Source: Methanofollis formosanus (GTDB lineage Archaea; Halobacteriota; Methanomicrobia; Methanomicrobiales; Methanofollaceae). From it: a stretch of 64,000 nucleotides of DNA. The stretch covers positions 2,796,789 through 2,860,788 of the forward strand of contig NZ_CP037968.1 of the NCBI RefSeq assembly GCF_019633745.1. Direction: 5' to 3'. Within the stretch, counting starts at the first letter, position 1; each line of letters opens with the position of its first letter. The notes beneath the pieces are model-generated. The model ran no database searches. It saw only the letters and a program-made list of their open reading frames with translations, and was not told the origin of the DNA. The position numbers were made by a program, and so were the translations under genes. Shown here piece by piece: positions 3,488 through 63,679 of the stretch.

Positions 3488-3602
3488 AACGGCTTTTTAG
3501 AATGCCTTTTCAAGATCTTCTTGCCTTCCCGGACGGATCTTGAGAGTGGAGGCGTTTGGGTCCGGGCTCACGCGAGCTGATCTTTCCAGGGCCCGAAAAA
3601 TG

Positions 3603-4653
3603 AGTTCTGTAGAATCAGGCATGAATCCCTGGCTCAAGCATACGGGATGAAAATTTCTCGTCGTTTGCTCTCTCTCTTTATTCAAGACAGGAGAATCTGG
3701 GGGGATCGTGTTCCATCGCCGCCCCCACCTATCTTCGTCGTGGGGGTCCGGGGTTTTCCCCCGGCGCGAGATTGCGGGAAAGATTTGACGATTCAGGGCG
3801 GTCGATCCATCAGAGGAATTTTCTATCCTCTGCGTATAGGTTTCAAAGGGATATAGCGAGTTCAAACTCTCATGAAAACCTGAAGAGAGGATCGCCAGGA
3901 TCATTTTCATGGAACATATCCCAAAAGTATCCCGAACATGAATCTTCGTCCGTATCAAAACCCTTCATTCCAAAAATTCTGATCGCAGACCTTCCGCTGG
4001 GTGGCTGGTTGCCCCCCGTTCCCCCCGCAGAAGATAGGGTGGAGGACGGTAATCCCCTTTTCAGCATCATCACGTGCGCCTTCCCGCCCCTATCGCAATC
4101 CCGGGGGTCCGGGGGCAGAGCCCCCGGCACGAGCATGCGGGAAGGCAGACCGATCGACGTGCCGCCCTACATAGAGACTAAAAAATGTTCTTCCGCTTTC
4201 TTTCGCCGGGGGGAGACCCCCCGGACCCCCCGAAGATAGGGGTCGGGCGGCAGAGCACCAGGTGAAAGGATAGAAGAAGGCGAGAAATGGATGTTCACGC
4301 TATGAAGAGAAGGGAGTTTTACACCATCATCTTTCTTTATCTCTGGTAGAGGGGGAAGTCAGGAGAGTTTTAGGAGGACCTCATGGTAAACCATCCTCTT
4401 TTCATCACTTCAACCCCCTGTGAACCGAATCCCCCTTCCCTCATGCTTGTGCCGGGGGCGCTGCCCCCGGACCCCCGGGATGAAGATTGGGTCGGGAAGG
4501 CGGAGAGATGACCATGAAGAGGGGGTTGCAATCCGCCACCTATCTTCTCGCGGGGGATCCGGGGGGACGACCGGAGGGAGTCGAGAAGATCTTTGATCTT
4601 CGAACGGCCAGCCCCCCGCAGAAATAGCCATCCTGAGCATTTCTACAAAGCCA
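3603..4653. repeat. Composite intergenic repeat element, about 1.05 kb
   Basis: The left end AGTTCTGTAGAATC (3603) and right end TTCTACAAAGCC (4641-4652) are inverted versions of the family terminus. AAAAATG occurs just outside both ends (3596-3602 and 4654-4660), a possible 7-bp target duplication, though the sequence is low complexity. Inside are the hairpin CATGAA..CTCAAGC module near 3620, GC hairpins near 3745, 4110, 4206-4224, 4455 and 4560, and a 110-bp module at 3805-3912 that recurs at 63296-63405. No open frame here looks like a real protein. Confidence 0.75.
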
Positions 4654-4937
4654 AAAAATGTGAAAAAAAGTTCTGTGAAGGTTGGACGGATCCTGACCAT
4701 CATGAAGCGGTCTGCCATGGGCCGCTCCCGAACACACACCGGCGATACGGCGGTAACGTGCCGGTGTCGGGTTCGAGGTCTTCATTCCCGGAGGAGCAGA
4801 AGGGTCTGCTCATGCCGAGGTATTTCGCCACATCGCTGTGGCATGAACGATCATGAAACGGTCGCGAGGATAAATATGGGCCGTGCGGTGCGAAAGTGAT
4901 CGCCTCTCCGGCGGGGGCTGAGTGTGGGGGGTCGATC
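4654..4937. other. Gene-free stretch with a possible degraded HTH remnant
   Basis: The complement of about 4720-4850 encodes SDVAKYLGMSRPF followed by LPPYRR and a GSGPW stretch. This resembles the excisionase-type helix-turn-helix (HTH_17) used by some antitoxins, but it has no start, no full domain and no conservation that I can test. It is best read as a possible decayed gene or chance. A TATA-like box (ATAAATAT, 4870-4877) belongs to the next gene. Confidence 0.25.
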
Positions 4938-16366: not shown

Positions 16367-17374
16367 ATGGAGATCAGGAAAGTTCAGGTCACCGGCGGCT
16401 CCTCCTATATCGTCTCCCTCCCCAAGGAGTGGGTGAAGACCTCCGGGATCCGGAAAAACGACCCTGTCGGGCTGATCACCCAGCCGGACGGCACCCTCCT
16501 CGTCACCCCGAAGATCACCCCCGAGGTGGCGCAGCGGGAGAAGCGCTTCGAGGTGAGTGCGGCCACCGACCAGACGTTCATCTTCAGGTGCCTCATCGGC
16601 GCCTACATCGCGGGGTACACCACGATCACCCTCTTCGCCCGGGCCCGCCTCCCGCCGCAGATCAGGATCCAGGTGCGGCAGTTCACCCAGATGGCCATCG
16701 GCCAGGAGGTGGTGGACGAGACCGAGACCTCGATCACCATCAAAGACCTCCTCAGCCCGGCCGAGATGCCCTTCCAGAACACCATCAAGCGGATGGGCGT
16801 GCTGGTGCGCGGGATGCACCGGGACGGCGTCGAGGCGCTGACGAGCGGGAACCGGCGCCTGGCCGAGGACGTGCTGACGCGGGACAACGACGTCGACCGC
16901 CTCCACTGGCTCGTCGCCAGGCAGACCAATCTCGTACTCGCCGACCCCAACCTCTCCAGGAAGATGGGCGTGAGCCCCTCGATGGTCATGAGTTATTTCC
17001 TCATCTCGCGGATCATCGAGCGGATCGGCGACCATGCGACCCGGGTCGCGAAGAACGCGATCCTGCTCCTCGACGACGGCGCCACCGGCACGGTGACCGG
17101 GATGGTCCGCGAGGCGAGCGCCACCTCCCAGACGCTCTTCGACCAGGCGCTCAGGTCGCTCTTCAGCCAGGACCTGGAGGCCGCCAACGAGACCCTCAAA
17201 CGCCTGCCTGACCTGGAGAGTCAGGCGCGGGCCATCAATGAGGAGGCGATGCAGTTCGACGCGGCGACGGCGACGGCGGTCGTCGCCCTCTCAGACAGCA
17301 TCAGGCGGACCGGCGAATATTCGGGCGACATCTGCGAGACGGTCATCAACCACCTCATCGACGAAGGGGCGTGA
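16367..17374 (+). CDS. Phosphate-responsive regulator: AbrB-type DNA-binding domain fused to PhoU domains
   Basis: 335 residues. Residues 1-50 (MEIRKVQVTGGSSYIVSLPKEWVKTSGI, GTLLVTP) form a SpoVT/AbrB-type swapped-hairpin DNA-binding domain. Residues 115-335 contain two PhoU repeats, e.g. FLISRIIERIGDHATRVAKNAI and the C-terminal IRRTGEYSGDICETVINHLI. This architecture is common in archaea and is thought to link phosphate status to transcription of pst genes. It is transcribed away from pstS across a 146-base shared promoter region. A TATA box at 16335-16341 lies about 29 bases before ATG, implying a leaderless mRNA. Confidence 0.88.
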   Translation: MEIRKVQVTGGSSYIVSLPKEWVKTSGIRKNDPVGLITQPDGTLLVTPKITPEVAQREKRFEVSAATDQTFIFRCLIGAYIAGYTTITLFARARLPPQIRIQVRQFTQMAIGQEVVDETETSITIKDLLSPAEMPFQNTIKRMGVLVRGMHRDGVEALTSGNRRLAEDVLTRDNDVDRLHWLVARQTNLVLADPNLSRKMGVSPSMVMSYFLISRIIERIGDHATRVAKNAILLLDDGATGTVTGMVREASATSQTLFDQALRSLFSQDLEAANETLKRLPDLESQARAINEEAMQFDAATATAVVALSDSIRRTGEYSGDICETVINHLIDEGA

Positions 17375-18068
17375 GCGGAGGGGGTGCGGGGCTTCGTGAT
17401 CGCTCGTCTTCCCTTTCGCGCGTTTTCCGGGGGTGCGGGCGCCGCATGGAGATCAGTGCGGGAAGGTCAACGGCCTGAAGATGTATACTCAAGAAAGGGC
17501 TCTGTAGAATTTTTCATGAGGCGAGCGCCCGCCTCAAGCATACGCGATGAAAATATCAGATCAGATCTGGATCGATTCCTGACCCTCATCCTTGCGATCG
17601 ATGAGTGAATCGAAGTCGAGCATCATGCCGCCCCCCGGCGCGAGACAGCGGGGAAGATGTTGCAATTGAGGGCGGCCGATCTGATCGACGTGCCTTCCCG
17701 AACCCTCGCGCCGGGGGCTCTGCCCCCGGACCCCCACGACGAGGATAGGCGGGGGCGGCGATGAAACCGGATCTTCCAAAGGTCCTGTCGCGAGGATTGG
17801 GGTCCCGCCCACACGCCGTAGCGCAGCTCAGAAAATTTTCATCCCGTATGCTTGGGCCGGCGGTTCATGCCCAATTCTACACAGCCCAAGAAAGTTTGTA
17901 CGATGAATCGGTGAAGATGTCATGAACAAAAACCGGGATTTCTTAAATGTCCTCTATTTTTTACGATAGGCCGGCGATGCCGTTGCCGTCTCCCCGGCGT
18001 TCCTGATTTTCGCAGACAAAACCCGCAGATATATATGTCCATCAAAATAATCCTCGAGTGTATCCATC
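17375..18068. other. Gene-free region holding a repeat element and a promoter
   Basis: 17497-17887 is a repeat element (see next entry). The rest has no credible gene. The stretch 17890-18068 becomes AT-rich, and ATATATAT at 18029-18036 is the likely promoter of the downstream hydrolase gene. Confidence 0.7.
17497..17887. repeat. Complete MITE-like repeat element with flanking AAGAAA duplication
   Basis: The best-defined copy of the family, 391 bp. It starts GGGCTCTGTAGAAT and ends AATTCTACACAGCCC, an inverted pair. The same six bases AAGAAA stand immediately outside both ends (17491-17496 and 17888-17893), as expected for a target-site duplication. Inside are a near-perfect hairpin GCATGAGGCG/CGCCTCAAGC style stem (about 17517-17543) and the GC hairpin CCGGGGGC TCT GCCCCCGG (17711-17729). 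Its right half, reversed, matches 63079-63260. No protein is encoded. Confidence 0.8.
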
Positions 18069-32849: not shown

Positions 32850-33449
32850 ATGTCTTCAGGGGACCTCCTGAGCGTTGCGGCCGGTGTCGTGATCGTCATC
32901 CTCGTCGCCTCGGCCGTGCAGTGGTGGGGAGACGACCGCCCGCCCATAGACGGCATCGACGACGGGCAGCACCCGCCCCTTACGCATCCGCCTGATCCGA
33001 CGCCGTCTCCGACGCCTGTCTCCCTCCCTGCGCCGTCGAAACTCGGCTATGTCGAAAAACCGGTCCTCAAATATAAGACGTACCTCCTCCCGGACAACAT
33101 CAGTCTCTTCGGAGCCTCGGACCCCTCCTGGAAAACAAAAGAGTGCGTCGTCTTTGCGTCTCTAGAGGAGGAACACGGTGGGGTCACCGGCACCTTCACC
33201 GTTCCCTACCCGATATGGCGGATGAACTGCACCGTCATCCCGGACAACAATCCGGGATCGACTCTCTTCAGGGCCATCCTCGTCGATGCCAGCACCAATA
33301 CCATCATCGAAGGGATGGAACTGTGCGGACCGGGGCATGTCGTCAAGAATATCGAGGTCTCGAACGGCGAGTATTATCTCATCGTCGAGTGTCGGCACGC
33401 GCACTTCACGATGAATATGGAGACGAAAAAGGAGTTTCTGGCCCTGTAG
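32850..33449 (+). CDS. Membrane-anchored surface protein, paralogue of the gene at 51417
   Basis: 199 residues. The N-terminal helix LLSVAAGVVIVILVASAVQW anchors it; a Pro/Thr-rich stalk (about 30-62) leads to a beta-rich outer domain of about 130 residues. Shared with the 51417 gene are the same order of anchor, Pro/Thr stalk and domain, a VPYPIW/IPYPYW strand, and a final (G)EYYLIVECR / DYWFVINTRC strand. Function unknown. The stop TAG at 33447-33449 lies inside the terminus GGCCCTGTAGAATT of the repeat that follows, so the C-terminus may have been truncated or replaced by insertion. Confidence 0.7.
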   Translation: MSSGDLLSVAAGVVIVILVASAVQWWGDDRPPIDGIDDGQHPPLTHPPDPTPSPTPVSLPAPSKLGYVEKPVLKYKTYLLPDNISLFGASDPSWKTKECVVFASLEEEHGGVTGTFTVPYPIWRMNCTVIPDNNPGSTLFRAILVDASTNTIIEGMELCGPGHVVKNIEVSNGEYYLIVECRHAHFTMNMETKKEFLAL

Positions 33450-33978
33450 AATTAGGCATGGGGCGAGAGCACGCCTCAAGCATACGGGATGAAAATTTCT
33501 CGTCGCTTGCTCTCTCTTTTCAAGACCGGAGAATTGGTGGAGACCTCAATCCATCGCCGCCCCTCGGCTATCTTCTCGCGAGACGGCAGGAAAGATCGTG
33601 CGATGAGGGCGGCACGCCTGATCGTTCTGAGGGTGGTTTTGTTCTCCGTATATCGGATATGAGGGAAATTGGTGTCTTCGAATTCTCATCCATAACTCCA
33701 GAATTGAACGTCTGGATCATTTTCATGGTAAAACCTCCTCTTTTCATAACCTCAACCCACCCGTGAACCGAATCCATCGCTTTCCCTCCTGCTTATGCCA
33801 GGGGCTCTGCTCCCGAACTCCCTACGACGAGGATAGCCAGGGGCTGGCAACTGAGAGGTGTCTTCCTGATACCCTGCCGCAATTGATATGGATCGATTCC
33901 TCCACACCTCGAAACACCGCTCTGAACAATGTTCATCCCGCATGCTTGAGCGCGGAGTTCATGCCCGATTCAACACGC
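33440..33978. repeat. Dispersed repeat element (about 539 bp)
   Basis: Left terminus GGCCCTGTAGAATTAGG (33440), right terminus GATTCAACACGC (33967-33978). It holds the CATACGGGATGAAAATTTC module (33480), a GC module near 33555-33600, the ACCGAATCCATCGC module near 33765 and another GC module near 33800. No gene is present up to 34099. Confidence 0.7.
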
Positions 33979-57112: not shown

Positions 57113-60100
57113 ATGATGAGAAGAGTATCCGCGGCCGGGACGTACCGGCCGGGAAGGTACAGGATAGCGACAGCCATCCTGATCCTGTTCGCGGTCCTGC
57201 TCGCCCTGACCGGCATTGCAGCAGGCGTGGAGATCCCGGAAGAGCGCTGGCAGATGACCTACGACTCGGGTTACAACGACTACGGCTATGCGCTCCAGGA
57301 GACCAACGAGAGCGATTTCATCCTTGCCGGGAAGGTGCAGAATGGTTCGACCAGCGACATGCTGCTGGTAAAGACCGACGAGAACGGCACACTGCTCTGG
57401 AACAAGACCTACGACTACGCCGCATACGACACGGCGAACGCGGTGAAGGAGACCCTCGACGGGGGCTATATCCTGGGGGGCTTCGGACTCATCGACCTGG
57501 CGAATGCATCGACCGACGGGGCGATGATGGTCAGGACCGACGAGAACGGCACCGTGCTCTGGACCGGGCCGACCGGGAACGTGAGCACCACCTGGGAGGC
57601 GGTCCAGGATGTCGCGGTCTGCGATGACGGGGGCTTTGTCCTGACCGGCCGGAACAACCCGCCGGCAGCGCCGAATGCCGCGTATCTGGTGAAGACCAAC
57701 GAGACCGGCGGCGTGGAGTGGGCGAATGGATACATGAGGGACATCGACGATGCCGGGTACTCGGTCCTGCAGACCGATGACGGGGACTATGTCTTCGCCG
57801 GGACGTCGGTCGACCTGACCAACGGGACGACTGACGCCTTCCTCAGAAAGACCAACGCCACCGGCGATCTGATCTGGGAGCGGTACTACGCGGCCAGTGA
57901 GATGAACTGGTCCTCGCAGGGGGCCGAGGGCGACTTCAGGTCGGTGAAGGTGGTCTCGACCGCCGACGGGGGGTACGCCGTCGCGGGCAGGGTCGTCTTC
58001 GAGAAACCCGAGACTGCGGCCGCCGCGATGATCAAGACCGACGCCGAGGGGCAGGTCGAGTGGGCCAGGATCTATACCGCCTGTTCGCAGACTTTCTGGG
58101 CGGAAGACCTTGTCGAGAGACCTGAAGGCGGTTTTATCCTTGCATGCCACTGCGACCCGCCAGCCAACCCGCAGAACGCCGTCTATCTTATCGGGACCAA
58201 CGAGACCGGCGAGATCGAGTGGCGGAACTTCTACACCATCGGTCCGTTCGAGAACGATCCGCACGCCATCATAGCGACTGCCGACGGCGGCTATGCGATC
58301 GGAGGCGAGACCGGGATCTGTGAGGATCTCACCGACCTCACGAACTGCACGCTCGACGCCTTCATCATCAGGCTCGGACCGAAAGAGCCACCGGCGCCAC
58401 CGCCCGGACCAGGGCCCGCGCCGCCGCCGGCGCTGAACGCGGACTTCAAGGCCTTCCCGAGGAGCGGTGTCGCCCCGCTGGACGTGGCGTTCACCGACCT
58501 CTCGACCGGATCGCCGACGTCGTGGGCCTGGGACTTCGGCGACGGGAAAGGGTCGACGGCCCAGTTCCCGACGCACACCTACACGAAACCGGGGGTTTAC
58601 ACCGTCTCGTTGACTATCTCGGACGGCAAATCGGCCGATACCGAGAGGAAGGTCGGGTACATCAAGGTCTCTGCAGAAGAACTCAAGGCGCGACTCTCCT
58701 TTGTCCCGAAAGAGGCAGAGGTGGCCGAGGGGGAGAACACCACCTATGACGTCGTGATGGACCGGGCCGAGAAGGGGATCGCCTTCTACTTCATGGACAT
58801 CAGACTCACCGACCCGGCGATCGCCGAGATCGTGGACGTCGAGATGCCGCCCTGGGTGAAGTCAGGGCCCATGGTCTCGCCGCTGCCGGCAGACTCGGTC
58901 CAGCTCTCGGGCGTCAAGGGGATCACCGATCCCGGGAAAGAGAAGATCACGCTCTGCACCCTGACGGTCCGCGGCGACCTTGCCGGCCAGACCGATCTCG
59001 TCATCGATGAGGCGCGGGTCCTGAGCACGGCGCTGGACGAGTATCTGCTCACGGCCAGTACGGGAGAACTCAATGTCACACCCGGGGCCTTCGACGCGAA
59101 CTTCACGGCCGACCCGCGGAACGGCACTGCACCGCTGGAGGTGAACTTCACCGACACCTCGATCGGATCGCCGACGTCCTGGCTGTGGGAGTTCGGCGAC
59201 GGGAACACCTCGACCGAGCAGAACCTGACCTATGTCTACAATCAGTCTGGCCTGTACACCGTGAACCTGACCATCTCTGACGGGACGCAGACCGACACCG
59301 AGACAAAGGTGGACTACATCAACGTCACCGCCGCACCGACGGTGCTCGCCGCAAATTTCACGGCCGATCCGCAGAACGGCACCGCACCGCTGGAGGTGAA
59401 CTTCACCGATCTCTCGGAGGGTGCACCGACGTCCTGGCTGTGGGACTTCGGTGACGGGAACACCTCGACCGAGCAGAACCCGACCAATGTCTATGCGGCG
59501 CCCGGAGTGTACACCGTGAACCTCACGGTCTCGGACGGGACAACGGAAGACTCGCTCGAGCGCCAGGACTACATCGAGGTCACGGCACCGCCGATCGTGC
59601 TCGCCGCAAACTTCAGCGCCACGCCGACCTCAGGAGCCGCACCGCTGGAGGTAGCGTTCACTGACACCTCGGAGGGTGCACCGACGTCGTGGCTGTGGGA
59701 CTTCGGCGACGGGAACACCTCGACCGAGCAGAACCCGACCAATATCTATGCAGCACCCGGAGTGTACACCGTGAACCTCACGGTCTCTGACGGGACGACC
59801 GAGGACTCGTTCGAACGGCAGGACTACATCGAGGTGACGGCACCGGTGGTCCCACTCTCCGCCGACTTCAGTGCCACACCGACCTCGGGCCCCGCGCCGC
59901 TTGCGGTAGCCTTCACCGATCTCTCGGTCGGTGCGGTGACGTCATGGCTGTGGGAGTTCGGCGACGGGAACACCTCGACCGAACCGGCGCCGACCTACAC
60001 CTTCCCCGCTGCTGGTACCTATGCTGTCTCATTGACGGTCTCCGACGGGACCGAGACCGATACCGAGACGAAGGCGGGGTACATCACCGTCACGCCAGGA

Positions 60101-60220
60101 GAGGAGATCACGCCCGAGGAGGAAGTGACACCGGAAGAAGAGGTGACGCCTGAGGAGGTGATCACGCCAGAAGAGGAAGTGACACCGGAAGAAGAAATGA
60201 CGCCTGAAGAGACGATCTGA
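57113..60220 (+). CDS. Large secreted protein: beta-propeller, five PKD domains, cohesin-like domain, acidic tail
   Basis: 1035 residues. Signal peptide (LLALTGIAAGVE region), beta-propeller about 40-430, Pro-rich linker PPAPPPGPGPAPP, then PKD 1 (about 441-519). A cohesin-like beta-sandwich follows (521-656, LSFVPKEAEVAEGENTTYDVVMD), then PKD 2-5 (661-995). Each PKD has the WDFGDGN/WEFGDGN motif. The last 40 residues are tandem TPEEEV-like acidic repeats with no membrane helix or sortase signal, so it is not obviously anchored. Ribosome site AGGAGGGGGA precedes ATG 57113. The PKD-encoding DNA is internally repetitive. Confidence 0.85.
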   Translation: MMRRVSAAGTYRPGRYRIATAILILFAVLLALTGIAAGVEIPEERWQMTYDSGYNDYGYALQETNESDFILAGKVQNGSTSDMLLVKTDENGTLLWNKTYDYAAYDTANAVKETLDGGYILGGFGLIDLANASTDGAMMVRTDENGTVLWTGPTGNVSTTWEAVQDVAVCDDGGFVLTGRNNPPAAPNAAYLVKTNETGGVEWANGYMRDIDDAGYSVLQTDDGDYVFAGTSVDLTNGTTDAFLRKTNATGDLIWERYYAASEMNWSSQGAEGDFRSVKVVSTADGGYAVAGRVVFEKPETAAAAMIKTDAEGQVEWARIYTACSQTFWAEDLVERPEGGFILACHCDPPANPQNAVYLIGTNETGEIEWRNFYTIGPFENDPHAIIATADGGYAIGGETGICEDLTDLTNCTLDAFIIRLGPKEPPAPPPGPGPAPPPALNADFKAFPRSGVAPLDVAFTDLSTGSPTSWAWDFGDGKGSTAQFPTHTYTKPGVYTVSLTISDGKSADTERKVGYIKVSAEELKARLSFVPKEAEVAEGENTTYDVVMDRAEKGIAFYFMDIRLTDPAIAEIVDVEMPPWVKSGPMVSPLPADSVQLSGVKGITDPGKEKITLCTLTVRGDLAGQTDLVIDEARVLSTALDEYLLTASTGELNVTPGAFDANFTADPRNGTAPLEVNFTDTSIGSPTSWLWEFGDGNTSTEQNLTYVYNQSGLYTVNLTISDGTQTDTETKVDYINVTAAPTVLAANFTADPQNGTAPLEVNFTDLSEGAPTSWLWDFGDGNTSTEQNPTNVYAAPGVYTVNLTVSDGTTEDSLERQDYIEVTAPPIVLAANFSATPTSGAAPLEVAFTDTSEGAPTSWLWDFGDGNTSTEQNPTNIYAAPGVYTVNLTVSDGTTEDSFERQDYIEVTAPVVPLSADFSATPTSGPAPLAVAFTDLSVGAVTSWLWEFGDGNTSTEPAPTYTFPAAGTYAVSLTVSDGTETDTETKAGYITVTPGEEITPEEEVTPEEEVTPEEVITPEEEVTPEEEMTPEETI

Positions 60221-62845: not shown

Positions 62846-63679
62846 ACCTCCCCATTGTCCTGCGGCGAGATAAAAATGTCACGGGATGGGGATGAGGGAG
62901 ATGGGGATCCATTGTTCTTCGGGGCGGCACACCCCCGGCTACAGCGAGCGAGGATCCGGGATGGCGTGGAATCAGAGGATGTAAGGGGCGGGTATGTGAT
63001 GATCGTGGGCCTCCTCAATCGCAGGATTTTCACTGTCGTCTCGCGCCGGAGGGGTGCGAATCGAAAATCAGAGATTTTGGATCTGTAGAATTGCTCCTGA
63101 GGCGAAAGCACGCCTCACGCATACGGGATGAAAATTTTCTGAGCTGCGCTACGGCGTGTGGGCGGGATCCCAATCCTCGCGACAGGACCTTTGGAAGATC
63201 TGGTTTCATCGCCGCCCCGGCTATCCTCGTCGTGGGGGTCCGGGGGCTGAGCCCCCGGCACGGGATGGCAGGGAAATCTCGTCTATGGGGGCGGCCGATC
63301 CATCAGAGGGATTTTCTATCCTCAGCGTATCGGCTTCAACGGGATATGGCAAGTTCAAACTCTCATGAAAACCTGAAGAGCGGATCGTCAGGATCATTTT
63401 CATGGTAAATCATCGTGATGGTTCTCTTCGCCGGGGGGCTTGCCGCCCCCCGGTCCCCCGCGCAAAGATAGGCGGTGGACTGCAACCCCCTCTTTCAGGG
63501 TCATTTCTCCGCCTTCCGTCCCAATCTTCATCCTGGGGATCCGGGGGCGGAACCCCCCGGCGTGAGCTTGGGGGAAGGTGATGGATGAAGGTCACAAGGG
63601 GGTTGAGGTGATGAAAAGAGGATGTTTTCTACAGAGCCCTTTTTTCATTCCTTGTCCTGCAAAAGATCTGAAGGAGAGA
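62846..63679. repeat. Gene-free region dominated by a dispersed repeat element (63079-63639)
   Basis: Left terminus GGATCTGTAGAATTGC (63079), right terminus TTTTCTACAGAGCCC (63625-63639), 561 bp. Its first 180 bases match, in reverse, the right half of 17497-17887. The 110-bp segment 63296-63405 matches 3805-3912 at almost every base. The GC hairpin CCGGGGGC TGA GCCCCCGG lies at about 63240-63260. The left flank 62846-63078 contains another partial GC module. Confidence 0.75.

Follow-up and report, generated by a model that had tools for sequence, protein, structure and literature searches.

Published archaeal MITEs generally conserve with their autonomous partner only their borders, of less than 20 nt (PMC3852290), and those listed in Table 4 of that work display copy numbers of 2-34 and lengths of 89-570 bp (PMC3852290). 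Among insertion sequences (IS), ISTth7 (IS5 / ISH1) is listed as an element of 900-1150 bp with an 8-bp DR (PMC6352166). The literature that we searched contained no description of MITEs in Methanofollis, nor of the family presented below.

In this work, we characterized a short element located at positions 17498-17886 of a 64,000-nt stretch (hereafter the window; G000:C1:2796789-2860788) of a 2.97-Mb, single-contig Methanofollis genome. The family to which it belongs resembles the published archaeal MITEs in sharing only terminal inverted repeats (TIRs) of less than 20 nt with its candidate partner, in having no ORF for a transposase, in being multi-copy and in displaying DRs, which the published elements do sometimes. 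In turn, the element at 17498 differs from the IS of the IS5 family in that it lacks a transposase of its own, and is thus a derivative and not an IS. The IS6 family, which is characterized by GGCTCTGTTGCAAA-like ends and an 8-bp duplication, also deserves comparison: the MITE resembles it in the first bases of the terminus and in the duplication length, but differs in that no IS6/IS240 transposase was found in the genus and the intact candidate partner is IS5-type.

Boundaries of the element and abundance of its family

The termini of the element align as inverted repeats, GGCTCTGTAGAATT on the forward strand (17498-17511) and GGCTGTGTAGAATT on the reverse strand (17873-17886), with imperfect similarity extending to ~17557 on the left and inward to ~17833 on the right. 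Since the termini align in this way, the element spans 17498-17886 and measures 389 bp, and not 391 bp as the original prediction had it. It is bordered by two copies of CAAGAAAG, at 17490-17497 and 17887-17894; the AAGAAA pair first noticed at 17491-17496 and 17888-17893 is real and is contained in them, although the repeat has 8 bp instead of 6. These two copies represent a target-site duplication. The sole ORF inside the element encodes 83 aa without known identity, and a comparison of the element with the genome yielded 143 matches, mostly partial. The element therefore combines TIRs, a duplication of constant length (8 bp), a short size, multiple copies and the lack of a transposase ORF; since the candidate partner, an IS5-family IS, displays the same terminal bases, an 8-bp duplication and an intact transposase, we classify the element as a MITE, that is, a non-autonomous transposon, belonging to a high-copy, mosaic Methanofollis family. 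The gene upstream (16367-17374) appears PhoU-like from the reading of its translation, with the closest sequences in Methanofollis MAGs (90% aa identity). The window was also searched for structured RNAs against Rfam, and nothing matched except two tRNAs.

Other family copies in the window are preserved to different degrees. A 1050-bp member (3603-4652) lies between GAAAAATG (3595-3602) and AAAAAATG (4653-4660), which agree at 7/8 positions; the AAAAATG pair reported earlier is present at 3596-3602 and 4654-4660, but it forms part of this longer, imperfect repeat, and the element ends at 4652. The copy at 33440-33976 has a degenerate right end and no visible duplication, and the one at 63079-63638 conserves both termini between non-matching flanks (GAGATTTT / CTTTTTTC). 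A G+C-rich palindromic module, CCGGGGGCTCTGCCCCCGGACCCCC, was observed at 17707-17755, 159-209, 4446-4496 and 63215-63265 of the window, and recurs in many family copies in both orientations. Elsewhere in the window, a coding-looking region (58399-60214), possibly of a repetitive surface protein, contains 255-nt repeats and, after them, 18-nt repeats.

With up to 3 mismatches allowed, the genome contains 287 occurrences of one internal end motif (control, 0), along with 102 exact copies of GGCTCTGTAGAA (control, 0). In a spaced 390-kb sample, known members match 3.3% of the bases, in 54 islands; the true share is at least this value. The sample avoided stretches already picked as rich in ends; in the window the share reaches 8.9%. 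Member lengths range from ~240 to ~1490 bp, with strong mosaicism. The near-matches to the end motif, this range of lengths and the mosaicism set the family apart from the archaeal MITEs described so far (PMC3852290). Termini with at most 1 mismatch to GGCTCTGTAGAATT number 220 in G006, 213 in G007, 123 in this genome, 58 in G001, 38 in G002, 23 in G008 and 12 in G005, and 0-4 in each of the other five genomes; since the counts range so widely, the expansion of the family is lineage-specific and concerns only some Methanofollis genomes.

Empty sites and insertion history

That the family transposes, as originally proposed, was confirmed by empty sites holding a single copy of the target in related genomes, found for three members and for one reciprocal case. 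A 557-bp member (L092:15376-15932; G000:C1:2210784-2211340) is located between two copies of CGAAAAAT, and the corresponding site is uninterrupted, with one CGAAAAAT, in G001 (93%) and G006 (85%). At this locus (L092:15341-15932; G000:C1:2210749-2211340), the member breaks, near codon 12, a gene designated as sodium-dependent transporter-like from the reading of its translation, which is intact in G001. Similarly, a 242-bp member (L121:1501-1742) is flanked by two copies of GGAATAAT, a word found once in G001. The window copy at 3603-4652 is absent in G001, where the orthologous site holds a single GAAAAATTG and the junction reads CCCGAAAAATTGTGAAA, with one target copy and a 1-bp indel. Conversely, the window contains one CTATTTTT (17954-17961) that is duplicated in G006 around a 240-bp member, in the same intergenic region as the 17498 copy. 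Searches with joined flanks for two additional members (L094 and L104) found no contiguous empty site. Different family-like ends were also observed at or beside the 3603-4652 site in G006 (L209) and G007 (L210), which suggests either that the site was used more than once or that a single old insertion was rearranged.

The empty allele with a single target was not found in clean form for the copy at 17498: G006 and G007 carry the insertion, and G001 lacks the element together with ~100 bp of its flank. Thus, this check, put forward with the original prediction, was answered by other members of the family and not by the copy for which it was conceived. In G006, an orthologous copy is present, also flanked by two CAAGAAAG; it measures 356 bp, its ends and flanks are conserved, and part of its interior is inverted with respect to the matching sequence of the window copy (87% over 47 bp). 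In G007, the left flank and left end are kept, and a different right end is located farther downstream in the orthologous intergenic sequence. Because G006 shares both the site of the element and its CAAGAAAG pair, the insertion is old, predating the split from at least this sister species. Its interior has been rearranged since, being partly replaced or inverted in G006 relative to the window copy, and we infer that internal exchange between copies takes place by recombination.

These observations bear on the route by which the family spreads. The strong mosaicism of its copies, the G006 orthologue with its ends and flanks kept around a partly replaced or inverted interior, and the different right end in G007 would all fit a family expanding for the most part through replicative transposition, or through recombination or gene conversion among its copies, instead of cut-and-paste, whereas transposition, though no particular route of it, is needed to explain new sites that have clean 8-bp duplications and empty alleles; on balance, we regard such an expansion as rather unlikely. 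The duplication, presented in the original prediction as the clearest evidence of cut-and-paste, does not prove that mechanism, because DDE transposition generates duplications whether it is conservative or replicative.

Candidate source of the transposase

The best candidate for an autonomous partner of the MITEs is a 1008-bp element (L115:1501-2508; G000:C1:642014-643021) with termini GGCTCTGTAGAATT / GGCCCTGTAGAAAC, the duplication GAACAATC and an intact ORF for a 305-aa DDE transposase; no other intact copy with matching ends and a duplication was found in the genome. The transposase was assigned to IS5 by NCBIfam NF033579 (237 bits; cut-off, 140) and to PF01609 by Pfam (76.7 bits; cut-off, 23), and its D, D and Y(2)R(3)E(6)K residues (YHQRNKVETAFSVLK) are conserved in relatives. 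In its size, 8-bp duplication, IS5-level DDE transposase and Y(2)R(3)E(6)K signature, the element is alike to the ISH1-like IS5, and it probably belongs to this subgroup. Three 1007-bp relatives were identified in G011, with 8-bp duplications AAATTTAT, GTGCATAT and CATCGAAC; viral contigs were searched as well, and no relative of the transposase was found in them.

Between the MITE and this IS, only ~12-14 terminal bases are shared, and BLAST yielded no match between them; this extent is typical of archaeal MITEs, since borders of <20 nt are reported as the part generally conserved (PMC3852290). Another locus (L133:1336-2562; G000:C1:2308225-2309451) contains a 70% relative (at 2308390; an IS5 transposase gene, open, 328 aa), with its right part duplicated and unmatched flanks, and its left end resembles the MITE end (80% over 56 bp). 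This locus is a chimera in which a MITE-type end is physically joined to an IS5 gene. A 1488-bp element (L084:25-1512) was considered as autonomous parent and rejected, as it seems to be a family copy that holds another IS5 element, and its right part matches other copies. It displays an exact 8-bp duplication (GATAATAT), and the IS5_3-type transposase inside it, encoded in two frames (137 and 119 aa), apparently belongs to a second, nested IS.

No relative of the transposase was found in G006, the genome with the most termini by one pattern (220), which counts against the IS5 protein as mover, and G007 contains only a fragment; because G006 lacks such a relative, the family in that genome may be inactive, or dependent on another or a lost transposase. 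Both genomes, with more than 200 termini each, would be accommodated if the MITEs were moved by a transposase of another family generating 8-bp duplications (IS6, IS1595, ISL3 or IS256), lost or undetected, and IS6-type ends (GGCTCTGTTGCAAA) do resemble those of the MITE. Against this stand the intact IS5-type element with the same TIR and an 8-bp duplication in this genome, and the result of the search with the IS6/IS240 model (PF13610), which had no match in any of the 12 Methanofollis genomes and led us to reject IS6 as partner. A mover from another family is improbable, and the IS5 protein encoded by the 1008-bp element most likely moves the MITEs in trans, as suggested by the matching ends, the duplication length and the co-occurrence of both elements.

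Duplication length and target pattern

Terminus pairs were collected from the window and 40 genome stretches, picked for family ends and not for duplications. Among 71 facing pairs, the flanks were identical at 8/8 positions in 17 and at 7/8 in 8, compared with 0.2% and 0.8%, respectively, of all non-self re-pairings of the same flanks, which corresponds to chance expectations of ~0.14 and ~0.6 for 71 pairs. Identical flanks at merely random rates across copies, the outcome that the original prediction had set against itself, are contradicted by these figures. In the 41 pairs with at most 1 mismatch per terminus, exact flank repeats were found 15 times at 8 bp, twice at 2 bp and twice at 7 bp (near chance), and never at 3-6 or 9-14 bp. 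The duplication length of the family is exactly 8 bp.

Roughly two thirds of the facing pairs have no duplication, which we attribute here to decay, recombination and mis-pairing of ends. The earlier remark that no duplication is visible at other copies holds approximately within the window, where most copies are truncated, and is false genome-wide. In the reconstructed targets, A/T makes up 76-92% at positions 2-7 and 32% at the two outer positions (1 and 8), the sample having 60% G+C; accordingly, the suggested preference for A-rich targets holds as far as the targets are A/T-rich, but the pattern is that of a G/C-ended word with an A/T-rich core of six. A/T-rich flanks raise the rate of chance matches, and the same flanks recur in G006 as expected if they belonged to the repeat; nevertheless, the duplicated word changes from copy to copy (CAAGAAAG, ATCTTTCC, GATAATAT) and has exactly 8 bp, and empty sites hold the target word once, so that chance or an extended terminal repeat, instead of target duplication, hardly merits consideration as the origin of the identical flanks.

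Discussion

With the integration of these findings, we are confident that the sequence at 17498-17886 is a MITE whose 8-bp target was duplicated on insertion, that an IS5-family element likely provided the transposase in trans, and that the insertion is old. In the proposed sequence of events, a staggered cut at an A/T-rich target and the insertion of the MITE would have led to the duplication of the 8-bp CAAGAAAG; we infer this duplication for the 17498 copy, and direct evidence comes from the empty sites of other members. The transposase would have been provided by an IS5-family element with terminal GGCTCTGTAGAA and an 8-bp duplication, a source that would survive as the single intact 1008-bp copy at G000:C1:642014-643021, and the interior of the 17498 element would have been rearranged after insertion.

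The mechanism is ordinary, and the family at 17498 brings no new one; its copy number, on the other hand, is unusually high. As a tentative and somewhat doubtful extension, a MITE family of this kind could outlive its transposase and diversify by inversion and module exchange between copies, being among the most abundant archaeal MITE families. What was an unexplained repeat family, accounting for several percent of the genome of a methanogen, can now be described as a mobile element: its ends are defined to the base, and a duplication of 8 bp, empty sites and a candidate transposase are assigned to it. Comparison of species allows its insertions to be dated, and what they do to genes can be read directly, as with the broken transporter.
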